Origin: Gammaproteobacteria bacterium
Lineage (GTDB): Bacteria; Pseudomonadota; Gammaproteobacteria; Eutrophobiales; Eutrophobiaceae
Assembly (NCBI GenBank): GCA_030829955.1
Contig: JAURNY010000032.1
Coordinates: 62,001 to 126,000, forward strand
Direction of reading: 5' to 3'
Length of the DNA: 64,000 nucleotides
The notes beneath the pieces were generated by a model. It worked only from the letters and a program-made list of their open reading frames with translations. It ran no database searches and was not told the origin of the DNA. The position numbers and the translations under genes are program-made. Below, piece by piece: positions 44,442-48,243 of the stretch; within the stretch, counting starts at the first letter, position 1, and every line of letters starts with the position of its first letter.

Positions 44442-44477
44442 CTTAGATATACTAGTGTAAAGATGACTGCTTTAAAA

Positions 44478-44657
44478 TCAGTGAAGCAGAGAATACTGTT
44501 TATAGGCTGATTGATGCTCGTGAAAATCAATATAATTATCACTAATCGTCAATGGCTCAGCAAAGACTCTGGCGATGACACCACTGGGTAATTGTACCTC
44601 TCTCACATGGATAGGTGAATTACATATTGGACATGGTATAGTAGGTTCACATTTCAT
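44478..44657 (-). CDS. Small CPxC-motif protein
   Basis: A 59-residue frame. It reads MKCEPTIPCPICNSPIHVRE and continues VQLPSGVIARVFAEPLTISD to a C-terminal YSLLH. The CPIC and N-terminal Cys suggest a half zinc finger. The ribosome site is not convincing. It lies 36 bases upstream of yqeC on the same strand and may be cotranscribed. No family is recognised. Reported because its composition is protein-like and it is not explained by any other feature. Confidence 0.5.
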   Translation of the reverse strand: MKCEPTIPCPICNSPIHVREVQLPSGVIARVFAEPLTISDNYIDFHEHQSAYKQYSLLH

Positions 44658-44718
44658 AATTAATTCAGATAGACAAATATACCTATTTCAAGTTTAGTTT
44701 TGATTAGATTTTTGAATA

Positions 44719-44744
44719 GACAAGGCAATATTTCACGCCTTGTC
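44719..44744 (-). terminator. Weak hairpin after the frameshifted exported peptide gene
   Basis: GACAAGGC and GCCTTGTC form an 8-bp stem with a 10-base loop, but no long T run follows on the minus strand. Possibly a weak terminator or processing site. Confidence 0.4.
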
Positions 44745-44759
44745 CATAACAAGTAAACA

Positions 44760-44884
44760 TTATTCAGCTTTTTCTTCCATTGCTAGTTCTTCTACAGGCA
44801 TTTCCTGCTCTGCTGGAGCTTCTTCAGCTTTCGATATCGTTGGATTAGAGGAAATGCAAAAAGCAAGTACTTAATATTTTTCAT
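44760..44884 (-). pseudogene. Frameshifted small acidic exported peptide
   Basis: Minus strand from ATG 44884, preceded by a strong ribosome site (AGGAG). The frame starts with a signal-like MKNIKYLLFAFP, and after a shift of one base continues as SNPTISKAEEAPAEQEMPVE and a stop at 44760. The mature part is Ala/Glu/Pro-rich. The gene is either recently frameshifted or carries an assembly error. Confidence 0.6.
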
Positions 44885-45121
44885 TATTAAGACTCCTAAG
44901 TAATTTAAAAAAATAGCTAAGGACTGAATCTTGATTAATCAGATTAGTTGACTAAATCCATGTCAGCAGCGCAAATGTCATATTTACGAAAACAAATAAA
45001 AATATTTAAATGATGTAATTCAATAAATTAGCAAAAACAGTATTTTTTATTAAGATAGGGTATGGAACAAAAAACAAATTGGTGCATGCTTGCATTACTA
45101 AAGAGCAAAATAGTAAGTTAA
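44885..45121. other. Gene-free AT-rich region
   Basis: No supportable gene, hairpin or repeat here. The stretch separates the exported-peptide gene from the tRNA-Cys-like element. Confidence 0.4.
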
Positions 45122-45196
45122 TGGAGGCTAGGGTTGGATTCAAACCAACATCTAGGAACTTGTGGATCGTCGCATAGGATATTCTGCCGCCCAGCC
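45122..45196 (-). pseudogene. Degenerate tRNA-Cys-like element
   Basis: A 75-base minus-strand sequence from GGCTGGG to GCCTCCA. The 7-bp acceptor pairs (one G-T), the discriminator is U and CCA is encoded, both as in tRNA-Cys, and GTTGG-TTTGAAT-CCAAC gives the T arm. The D arm lacks G18-G19, the loop has C33 instead of U33, and the anticodon would be ACA. Positions 28-42 and 31-39 are mismatched and C56 is U. These changes argue for a dead gene rather than a functional tRNA. Confidence 0.65.
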
Positions 45197-45211
45197 ACAA
45201 ACAGGATAAAT

Positions 45212-45242
45212 ATTATCTATATTATCTATATTATCTATATTA
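45212..45242. repeat. Tandem 9-base repeat
   Basis: ATTATCTAT repeated three times plus a partial fourth copy, just beside the tRNA-Cys-like element. Low-complexity AT tract; no function evident. Confidence 0.8.
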
Positions 45243-45362
45243 ACTAATTCAATTAACAGACATGACACAAAGTCTAATAAATCATATTTTGAGTTTTGCA
45301 AATGAACCACATTTCACAAAAATTTTATCGTCTTGTGTCTTCTTTTTATCTTTAATATATTC

Positions 45363-45504
45363 ATGCCAGACTTAATTGCCTTTCTTGATGAAATACTACT
45401 TGCTTTGTTTGCAATAATTCTAAGCAATATTAAAAAAAAGAAAAAAACAGGAACACAATTTCACCATCATTGATGGTGAGGCTGTTGATAAGGACGACGA
45501 ATAA
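45363..45504 (+). pseudogene. Small frameshifted gene of unknown family
   Basis: From ATG 45363: MPDLIAFLDEILLALFAIIL and then Lys-rich NIKKKKK, ending at 45473. One frame over, EHNFTIIDGEAVDKDDE runs to a stop at 45504. The break falls in an A-run (eight and seven As), consistent with a one-base length change. A strong terminator follows 40 bases later, which supports a transcribed gene. No ribosome site is obvious. Confidence 0.45.
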
Positions 45505-45543
45505 TATCAGAAAAATGCTTTTTCTAGATCTTCTGTCGAACAT

Positions 45544-45568
45544 TTTCAGATTAATCTGAAATTTTTTT
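45544..45568 (+). terminator. Intrinsic terminator after the small frameshifted gene
   Basis: TTTCAGATTAATCTGAAA is a perfect palindrome followed by seven T residues, a typical rho-independent terminator on the plus strand. Confidence 0.8.
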
Positions 45569-45684
45569 AACTAACTTTTAGTGACGTTATTATCCTAATA
45601 AAAAATTCTCAAAACGCTATCCGAATAAAATACTATCCCTTTCAAATTAAAAGGCAAAAATTTATAAGTCGTTGATTTATCAAG

Positions 45685-46401
45685 CTAATTAAATTTGATT
45701 AACTCCAGGGTCTTTCTGCCACCAGCAAATATAGGTGTTTTCGCTATGCTGATTTGCTCTCCATCAAGCTCATAACGCACCTGTTTTACAAGCCCAACAT
45801 CTGGCGCATACCATTCCTCAATTTTGAAAGGAATAGCAGTGTAACCATTTACACCATCGGTATAGATCTCTGTTTCACCAAGCGCTTCAAGCTTGATACA
45901 GTTTTTAAATTCACCCGCTGGAACAGTAACTGTTTCAGACAATGAAACAATTTCAAAGATCATTGGTACCTGCGTGGCTTCAGCTAAATGTCGATTAGGA
46001 AAGACACGAAGCAATATGATGGGTTTGGTAATAACCTGCCAACTGGCGCCAACTTCTAAAGGATACTTTAAGACAAAACGTGGACTGCTATCGAGTCTTG
46101 GCATGAGTTCAACTAATGTGCGCAAGGCATCTCGATGAACACCTGATTCGTCAGCATTCAAATAATAATCAATGCCATAGCTACTACGACGAACATAATA
46201 AGTATTTTCTCCATAGGTTTCCTTACCTATGTTTTCTAAGGTAACCAGTTCTCTGGTTGTTTCGTCTATATAAGTCGTTGTTAATTTATATTCCCACTTC
46301 AAGCCACTTTGTAGTGGAAAATAATCATCACCAACATTACCTACACAACTGCTCAGTAATAGTGATAAGATACTAAAAATAATTATTGTAATGACTCGCA
46401 T
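45685..46401 (-). CDS. Lipoprotein of the ExbB/ExbD-like operon, unknown function
   Basis: 238 residues with a lipoprotein signal and lipobox LLSSC (Cys19). The mature region is beta-rich, with repeated aromatic motifs such as YFPLQSGLKWEYKLTTTY, TVTVPAGEFKNCIKLEALGE and IEEWYAPDVGLVKQVRYELD. This resembles the general layout of periplasmic or outer-membrane lipoproteins of DUF-type, but no family is certain. It starts immediately after the preceding gene's stop and is the last of four. Its place beside a putative ion channel suggests it is the outer-membrane partner. Confidence 0.75.
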   Translation of the reverse strand: MRVITIIIFSILSLLLSSCVGNVGDDYFPLQSGLKWEYKLTTTYIDETTRELVTLENIGKETYGENTYYVRRSSYGIDYYLNADESGVHRDALRTLVELMPRLDSSPRFVLKYPLEVGASWQVITKPIILLRVFPNRHLAEATQVPMIFEIVSLSETVTVPAGEFKNCIKLEALGETEIYTDGVNGYTAIPFKIEEWYAPDVGLVKQVRYELDGEQISIAKTPIFAGGRKTLELIKFN

Positions 46402-46917
46402 TTATTTTTCCGGCAGGCGTATCTCAGGCAAATCAAAAAATTCCAATTGATTCGCGCGATCGGCAAGTCGACTGGTATCACTAGGTAACAATGATTCTTC
46501 GACTACTTGAAGGTTACGGCCAAGTTGAATCTTGCCCTGACGTATTTGTTCCAATGCTGTATCCAGAGACGCATGTAGCTCGAGATCATAAGGCAATTCA
46601 TAAGCACGAGGCTGTATCTCTGGTTTGTTATCGACAAATGCTGTTACCCAGATATGAATACGTCCAAGATCGCCGGTTCTTTCATCCGGCTCGGTAATTG
46701 ACGATGCTATTAATTGAAATATTTCTGGCAATTGTTGTTTTGTAGGCCAACCTAATAATCCCATATAACTGGTATAGGTTAAAAAATAAAAACCGGACAC
46801 TAGAATAACGCAGAGAAACTTTAACCATACTTTCGTTCTCGCCAGTAAAAAGATACCAACTAGTAATGCAGCTAACGCTACATAAGTTATGGATAAGCCT
46901 ATTATTGCCTGATTCAT
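46402..46917 (-). CDS. Small two-helix membrane protein in the ExbB/ExbD-like operon
   Basis: 171 residues with two hydrophobic segments (about 6-27 and 32-52). A mainly helical region of about 100 residues follows, including SLDTALEQIRQGKIQLGRNL. Not recognised as any family. It overlaps the upstream gene by one base and abuts the lipoprotein gene. The position suggests it is a structural or accessory part of the same assembly. Confidence 0.65.
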   Translation of the reverse strand: MNQAIIGLSITYVALAALLVGIFLLARTKVWLKFLCVILVSGFYFLTYTSYMGLLGWPTKQQLPEIFQLIASSITEPDERTGDLGRIHIWVTAFVDNKPEIQPRAYELPYDLELHASLDTALEQIRQGKIQLGRNLQVVEESLLPSDTSRLADRANQLEFFDLPEIRLPEK

Positions 46918-47525
46918 TATTTTTCGCCCTTTACCAATGATTTAAATAATGTATTTTTATTCGTAATGTTACCATCCTCGTCGATAGTAAAGCGTATAGC
47001 GGTTTGTTCCTCGCCTTTCTCTTCCATGGTCAAGGTATCATAGTAAACAACCTCCAGTTTCGGGTTCACTCTGACAACACGCACCTCAACATTCACCTGT
47101 CGCTTTTCCTTGGTATCATAGTAATGCACATTAACAATATATTGTCCTGGTACTACGCCACGTATGGTGACAACTTCCTGATTAAGTGGATTAATAATCT
47201 CATTACCATCAACCAGAATACGATCATTATCCAGACCGCGATCATCTCTATCCAGATGCAATAACCCAACCTCAGGTATTCTATACCAGACGACCTGACC
47301 TTTTGGATCTTCTACCCAGGTATCAATATCTGATGGGCTATTGTCTTCCCATTTAACAGTAATAATAAATTCTGCTTTCGGATCAATGATACCTGTTTTT
47401 GCAGGTGGATTAAGAAACATGATCGTAATGATAAACAGCAGTGTAAATGCGAGTAACGAATTGAATAATAAATCCGTAAACGGATCCTGTTCAAAATCCC
47501 GCTTCTTGCGACGTAAAATCGCCAT
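46917..47525 (-). CDS. ExbD/TolR-like single-pass protein with a beta-rich periplasmic domain
   Basis: 202 residues: a short cytoplasmic basic N-terminus, one membrane helix (about 19-38) and a 160-residue extracytoplasmic part. The segment DPFTDLLFNSLLAFTLLF matches the ExbD proton-site motif PF-x-D at the helix start, with Asp18 at the equivalent of E. coli ExbD Asp25. The outer domain has an Ig/DUF2135-like look (WEDNSPSDIDTWVEDPKGQV, then RGVVPGQYIVNVHYYD). Standard ExbD or TolR periplasmic domains are not seen. It lies four bases after the ExbB-like gene. Confidence 0.7.
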   Translation of the reverse strand: MAILRRKKRDFEQDPFTDLLFNSLLAFTLLFIITIMFLNPPAKTGIIDPKAEFIITVKWEDNSPSDIDTWVEDPKGQVVWYRIPEVGLLHLDRDDRGLDNDRILVDGNEIINPLNQEVVTIRGVVPGQYIVNVHYYDTKEKRQVNVEVRVVRVNPKLEVVYYDTLTMEEKGEEQTAIRFTIDEDGNITNKNTLFKSLVKGEK

Positions 47526-47529
47526 AGCA

Positions 47530-48243
47530 TCAGGTTATTTGCTGATGCATGGAAGGAATTAATTCCGTTTCCATATAGTTTACTGTTCTAGCAACTAGTT
47601 CATCTGCACCACGATCCAGTAATAAATATTGAAAGCTTAATAACATACTGCCTATCAAACCAAGCAAAGTCGTATTTAACGCAAGGCTCATACCTGCTGT
47701 CATTTTAGTCAGCACACCCTGAATATCTTCAAGTGCAAATGATTCCAGACCTGATAAAGGTTCCAGCATCATTACAAAACCAATTACCGTACCGAGCAAA
47801 CCAAGTTTCACCAATAAACTCGTCATGAACCAGCCAAACTCATGTTGTGCATGTGCTTCTTCAGTAAAGATTTCCGTAATTAGTGTTTTATCTGATTCAG
47901 GTACGCCTTTATCACGCGTAATTATTGTTTGTCCTTGAAGACTCTTAATTACTGTACACAAAAATTCAGCTGGCAAGGAATCATTATCGCGCCATGAAAT
48001 CTTTGATTGATGAATTTCAATAATGGCATTGAGTTGCTGGCTTAAATAATAGGATCGAAAGCCACAATGGATCGTAGAACAAACAAAGATGAAACCAATA
48101 ATGTACGTTACTTTAGTCGGATCGCTTAAGAAGATGGGCAAAAGAATATGAATCTGCACACTTAACCAGATGAGGAATAGTAAAACTCCTGCATAAATAC
48201 TCCATTGCAGAAGCAAGCGATGATGAAATGTATTCTTAAGCAT
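47530..48243 (-). CDS. MotA/TolQ/ExbB-type channel protein
   Basis: 237 residues with four hydrophobic segments (about 13-38, 45-62, 138-160 and 184-209). The helices of the conserved core are VKLGLLGTVIGFVMMLEPLS and GMSLALNTTLLGLIGSMLLS, which match the TolQ/ExbB/MotA signature including the pore-lining Thr in the last helix. A cytoplasmic loop of about 75 residues separates helices 2 and 3. It is the first gene of a tight four-gene operon and would pair with the ExbD-like protein next to it. Confidence 0.85.
   Translation of the reverse strand: MLKNTFHHRLLLQWSIYAGVLLFLIWLSVQIHILLPIFLSDPTKVTYIIGFIFVCSTIHCGFRSYYLSQQLNAIIEIHQSKISWRDNDSLPAEFLCTVIKSLQGQTIITRDKGVPESDKTLITEIFTEEAHAQHEFGWFMTSLLVKLGLLGTVIGFVMMLEPLSGLESFALEDIQGVLTKMTAGMSLALNTTLLGLIGSMLLSFQYLLLDRGADELVARTVNYMETELIPSMHQQIT

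Follow-up and report, generated by a model that had tools for sequence, protein, structure and literature searches.

The window analysed here, a stretch of 64,000 nucleotides from a gammaproteobacterium of the family Eutrophobiaceae, carries four adjacent genes at 45685-48243 on the minus strand, to which all window features described below belong. In their 5' to 3' order, these are B (47530-48243, 237 aa), a membrane protein of the MotA/TolQ/ExbB family, D (46917-47525, 202 aa), a subunit in the position of ExbD with one helix and a predicted periplasmic beta domain, T (46402-46917, 171 aa), a two-helix protein with a predicted periplasmic C-terminal domain, and L (45685-46401, 238 aa), a DUF3108-like lipoprotein. 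The genes are tightly packed, with 4 nt between B and D, a 1-nt overlap of D and T and 0 nt between T and L, which agrees with the four adjacent open reading frames and gaps of at most four bases given in the initial annotation. D is 51-75% identical across Gamma-, Alpha- and Betaproteobacteria (51-74% in a set of 41 relatives) and much better conserved than B, and the order B-D-T recurs in about 100 distinct loci; therefore, we regard B, D, T and L as real genes, with B-D-T as their conserved part. On the same strand, a lactate dehydrogenase-like gene lies 60 nt upstream of B, followed by a lactate permease-like gene (both read by eye), and a tie of the array to these two genes was rejected, as no such association is seen in the other loci. 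Downstream of the array, the 1.2 kb at 44442-45684 hold no convincing gene and may contain a decayed one. Scans for regulatory signals were not informative: promoter-like sites around the array occurred at chance level, and the terminator scan returned a weak hairpin at 45461-45479.

B falls within the Pfam family MotA_ExbB (PF01618) with an E-value of 1.8e-9 and 37.9 bits at a cut-off of 22.9. Its three strong hydrophobic segments, together with a weaker one near residues 45-63 that was read by eye, indicate that it is probably a four-helix protein, consistent with the ExbB/TolQ-type protein of the initial annotation. A profile built from 24 relatives of B retrieves the TolQ-type protein encoded in this genome. 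In the alignment, GLLGT pairs with GLFGT and ALxTTLxGL with ALIATAMGL, so that T152 in GLLGT (47788-47790) and T192 (47668-47670) correspond in position to the two ExbB/TolQ pore threonines, which we take to be T148 and T181 in the E. coli numbering of ExbB. T152, T191 and T192 are invariant in the 24 relatives.

D has a single hydrophobic segment at residues 20-38, and its AlphaFold2 model (pLDDT 86) consists of a helix at residues 15-38 followed by 12 strands and no further helix. Alignment, model and hydrophobicity together place the transmembrane helix at residues 15-38 (47412-47483) with the motif DPFTDLLFN, which contains the PF-x-D that had been noticed at the outset in this single-pass protein. 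The Asp in question, Asp18 (47472-47474), is the presumed ion-carrying residue and follows PF-x in 79 of 86 distinct sequences. This helix Asp is what D shares with the ExbD/TolR family, whereas neither the Pfam match nor the type of periplasmic domain is found: Pfam ExbD/TolR matches neither the window D (E up to 1) nor any of 42 members of the D family (E up to 0.1), and no ExbD/TolR structure is among the structural matches listed for D by VIA-align. The view that the usual ExbD/TolR domain is replaced by a beta-rich, Asp-bearing one is borne out in this respect; however, the periplasmic domain (residues 49-201; 46923-47381) is not unique, as it appears to be related to DUF2135 and is predicted to have a TerD-like fold.

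DUF2135 is the most frequent weak Pfam match of the D members (7 of 42, best 8.8e-4), and the window D itself reaches 13.1 bits against this family (PF09906) at a cut-off of 22. The D profile in turn finds a VIT protein in a genome-wide search with E 4.4e-6, where Pfam DUF2135 matches with 3.8e-9, so that a DUF2135 relative was reached by an independent route. This protein (locus L222, 3083-6439, 1118 aa) combines a VIT domain, a VWA-like region recognised by eye and a C-terminal DUF2135, the part matching the D profile. By sequence, the periplasmic domain of D thus appears to be distantly related to DUF2135, with which it also shares an association with VWA proteins; the difference is that DUF2135 forms the C-terminal end of large VIT proteins such as VIT-VWA-DUF2135, whereas in D the domain sits on a presumed ion-motor helix.

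When the model was compared with solved structures by VIA-align, TerD ranked first (3ibz, Z 11.3, rmsd 3.8 over 137 residues), with further TerD structures at Z 10.3 (2qng) and 10.0 (2qz7) and an aligned range of 131-137 residues. A radial-spoke protein (9.7) and a GlpD-SCP2 model (9.6) came next, before the values dropped to 5.9 for the next unrelated entry; we presume that SCP2, too, could belong to the TerD family. The modelled domain is therefore predicted to take the TerD fold. A Foldseek search of the PDB gave only beta proteins, some of them staphylococcal, at low probability and TM-scores below 0.3, and these were discarded. When the sequence of D is set against 22 TerD proteins, the DxD, the glycine turn and the acidic cluster behind it line up in the same order, but a profile-profile comparison with hhalign was not significant (P 0.08) and Pfam TerD (PF02342) matches neither the window D nor the 42 members, so that we do not claim kinship by sequence and speak of a shared fold. 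TerD proteins are soluble and cytoplasmic, whereas D is anchored in the membrane by its helix. Five acidic residues of the domain, D66, D68, D94, D95 and D101 (DxD...DD...D), do not vary among the 42 members, and the first four stay invariant once phage proteins and far relatives are added. They form motif 1 (D66-x-D68; 47322-47330) and motif 2 (R93-D94-D95, then x-G97; 47241-47249), both invariant in the 42 relatives as well as in the phage and divergent members, and together with D101 they constitute a candidate Ca2+ site.

The two-helix protein and the lipoprotein that had been reported behind D are also found as described. T has two hydrophobic segments (residues 8-26 and 30-48) and a conserved C-terminal tail, FFDLPxxxxPEK, with the consensus FFDLPDPxxPEK. 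It finds no significant sequence match in Pfam, NCBIfam or the PDB and none to TonB or TolA; T has two helices. From its AlphaFold2 model (pLDDT 83), no fold was assigned, since OB-like matches were weak (Z 5-6) and nothing rose above background. The signal sequence of L ends in the lipobox LSSC with Cys19, which is followed by Val. In E. coli, the residue after the lipobox Cys governs the destination of a lipoprotein, and by this sorting rule L is predicted to reside in the outer membrane. L matches Pfam DUF3108_like (PF21347) with 2.9e-8 and 34.3 bits (cut-off 27), a family that 12 of 14 relatives match as well, and its profile finds 4fvs (4.7e-6) and 3fzx (2.6e-4) in the PDB. DUF3108 proteins are outer-membrane proteins with the YmcC fold, represented by 3FZX (PMC4364669). 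L resembles them in these matches; for none of them, however, is a partnership with a motor of the ExbB type known.

The co-occurrence counts draw on 80 of the 168 relatives found by one scan of species genomes, and on further loci from samples of relatives, of the class and of the phylum. In the resulting 109 distinct loci, counted irrespective of kinship, D has B adjacent in 101 of 104 cases and T in 101 of 108. Exceptions in four loci (L201, L202, L206 and L212) were recovered with models trained on phage proteins. L follows the triad in 24 of 105 loci and V, a protein of the architecture VWA-TM-FHA, in 42 of 105, whereas both together occur in none of the 105. In two loci (L065, L072), the lipoprotein lies close by on the opposite strand. 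Nine of the gene neighbours in the window vary among loci while B-D-T stays constant. The co-occurrence of all four genes therefore holds for only a part of them: B, D and T are almost always together, but L is not fixed. It is well supported that the conserved unit comprises the three genes B-D-T and that the lipoprotein is an alternative to at least one other partner.

The usual V array runs from an L,D-transpeptidase (YkuD) and a DUF302 lipoprotein to B, D, T and V, and in many genera it is flanked by a histidine kinase/regulator pair on one side and by tilS-accA-dnaE on the other. D is present in 40 of 369 genomes of the class sample (29 of 271 genera) and in 17 of 398 genomes of the phylum sample, mostly in one genus with genomes of 6-9 Mb. 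The genome of the window has one array of each type, as a second triad is found on contig C19 (locus L063, 4985-9490) with an L,D-transpeptidase, a DUF302 lipoprotein and a VWA-TM-FHA protein as partners, flanked by a two-component system and tilS-accA-dnaE; the B proteins of the two arrays are only about 30% identical to each other. Methylohalomonas lacus HMT 1, a cultivated member, likewise carries an array of each type (L145, L151). These partners suggest a work on peptidoglycan and outer membrane. The same genome encodes several other MotA_ExbB proteins, including TolQ-like and ExbB-like ones, and since homologues of both types are kept, B-D-T is an additional system. This speaks against B and D being an ordinary ExbB-ExbD pair that energises a TonB-dependent transporter, which the family membership of B and the Asp in the helix of D would allow. 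As, moreover, no array examined contains TonB or a receptor and the TonB-binding ExbD domain is missing from D, we consider such a role very improbable.

The residue at position 18 of D varies within the family. Among 101 aligned D sequences of the two types, 90 combine D18 and N22 with L or I at position 25, whereas the other 11 have A or V at position 18, always together with K22 and Q25 (L067, L092, L066, L167, L170, L172, L221, L168, L199, L200 and L203). Positions 18, 22 and 25 lie on one face of the helix (i, i+4, i+7), and the exchange is a concerted change on this face, by which the Asp presumed to carry the ion is lost. An acidic replacement in B that could pair with K22 was looked for and not found. 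The tree needs two changes to explain the A/V-K-Q variant; since the AU test does not reject a single clade (P 0.43), we do not claim two independent origins. One record of the A-K-Q clade (L168) is titled as a Klebsiella pneumoniae MAG, while the rest of the clade comes from uncultivated Gammaproteobacteria, and it is probably a mislabelled bin. With 11 of 101 sequences lacking the Asp, proton coupling based on this residue cannot hold for all members, and those with A/V-K-Q are either uncoupled or use another ion site. A proton-driven engine, as proposed initially, may apply to the family, but not in its Asp-based form to every member.

The loss of Asp18 in these 11 sequences would also fit a sensor or gated ion channel, in which D senses a ligand, perhaps Ca2+ or the state of the envelope, and B-D lets ions in or relays a signal to the cell interior. 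The TerD-like fold with its invariant acidic residues is compatible with this, and the FHA domain of V is a signalling module. However, the invariant pore threonines and the mostly retained Asp18 are motor-like, and the window array is devoid of a signalling protein, so that we judge a sensor unlikely, though still deserving attention.

The triad is not restricted to bacteria. Searches with the D protein of locus L206 lead to rhizobiophage proteins, and those with the window D hit 21 rhizobiophage records (E-values down to 6e-18). In Rhizobium phage 16-3, a periplasmic trypsin-like protease (p036) precedes B (p038), D (p040) and T (p042). This triad (L265, 3244-6132) and those of L267, L268, L270, L272 and L273-L302 are annotated as hypothetical proteins only. 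Each of the 37 viral loci that were inspected, a number that counts duplicates, keeps B, D and T in this order; a trypsin-like protease is nearby in 19 of the 37, and in rhizobiophages the triad often lies just downstream of it. Phage B proteins are shorter (138-173 aa), and those of L270, L272 and L267 score above the Pfam threshold; Asp18 is kept in the phage D proteins. Carriers include temperate and T4-like phages, and in L272 a T4-like DNA polymerase gene adjoins the triad. The viral models were obtained by iterative training on these loci, of which the non-seed ones are independent; they match the bacterial families with values from 3e-14 (T) to 2e-60 (D).

Given its presence at 37 viral loci, in temperate as well as T4-like phages, and the shorter phage B, the triad could be a phage gene set that bacteria have domesticated, with a secondary cellular role. 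However, the phage proteins are divergent and scattered, whereas the bacterial form is widespread with stable synteny, and we give this origin little credence. Hardly more can be said for a device that acts against phages or excludes them on a principle akin to that of Zorya, even though the triad is present in phages and B resembles ZorA, likewise a MotA/TolQ/ExbB-type pore protein, over the pore region (PADLOC, 1.1e-7). Against NCBIfam ZorA, B scores 20.7 bits at a cut-off of 100 and has no long cytoplasmic tail, D, T and L find no match in PADLOC, and ZorB, ZorC, ZorD and ZorE are lacking near the arrays; the window array has no TolA, OmpA-like ZorB or nuclease adjacent to it, just as the initial annotation had stated. 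Besides, the V-type copy holds a fixed place across many genera next to the two-component genes and tilS-accA-dnaE, and therefore looks vertically inherited rather than part of a defence island.

Taken as a whole, we favour, with slightly more confidence than doubt, that B-D-T represents an undescribed family of 5:2-type ion-driven envelope motors with an exchangeable output partner. The step from the family membership of B to a motor is drawn by analogy with MotAB, ExbBD and TolQR, which together with PomAB, GldLM and ZorAB make up the short list of 5:2 ion-driven motors in a review (PMC12905483). In such a motor, a pentamer of B would form an inner-membrane pore around the helices of two D subunits, and ions flowing past D18 and the threonines of B would make D rotate or tilt relative to B. 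In the periplasm, both copies of D would carry TerD-like, probably Ca2+-binding beta domains instead of the TolR/ExbD domain. T, as the obligatory third subunit, may sit by B and pass the movement on in the place of TonB/TolA, and the outer-membrane lipoprotein L would be one exchangeable output partner. A bolder version, in which B-D-T makes up a motor class of its own with a wide distribution, the Ca2+-binding TerD-like domain acts as rotor, the output is partner-swapped, some lineages have changed the carboxylate of the ion site to lysine and phages have adopted the system to control the host envelope, seems to us decidedly doubtful.

With TolQR/ExbBD, the triad shares the Pfam family and both pore threonines of B, the PF-x-D in a single N-terminal helix of D and the gene order B, D. 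It differs from them in the 12-strand beta domain of D, which is not of the TolR/ExbD fold, in the probably four instead of three helices of B, and in the obligatory two-helix third protein, with no TolA/TonB-like single-pass protein in the array. In our judgement, B-D-T belongs with the 5:2 motors rather than forming a new category. A 2025 survey of non-flagellar homologues in mBio describes A subunits with extra domains of unknown function and B subunits with a compact peptidoglycan-binding fold, and the sections consulted do not mention a DUF2135- or TerD-like domain. Searches of the open-access literature returned no paper with the word DUF2135, and nothing relevant that joins TerD with ExbD or deals with phage-encoded ExbB/ExbD. 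As far as checked in profile libraries and open-access papers, there is no named system of this composition, as had been supposed from the beginning.

If true, a further motor family that combines a periplasmic domain of its own with a constant third subunit and interchangeable outer partners would show how such motors are fitted to different tasks. Furthermore, since the A/V-K-Q variants occur naturally, they allow the role of the conserved Asp to be tested before any mutants are designed. From the copies in phages, it seems that motors of this kind are useful during infection.
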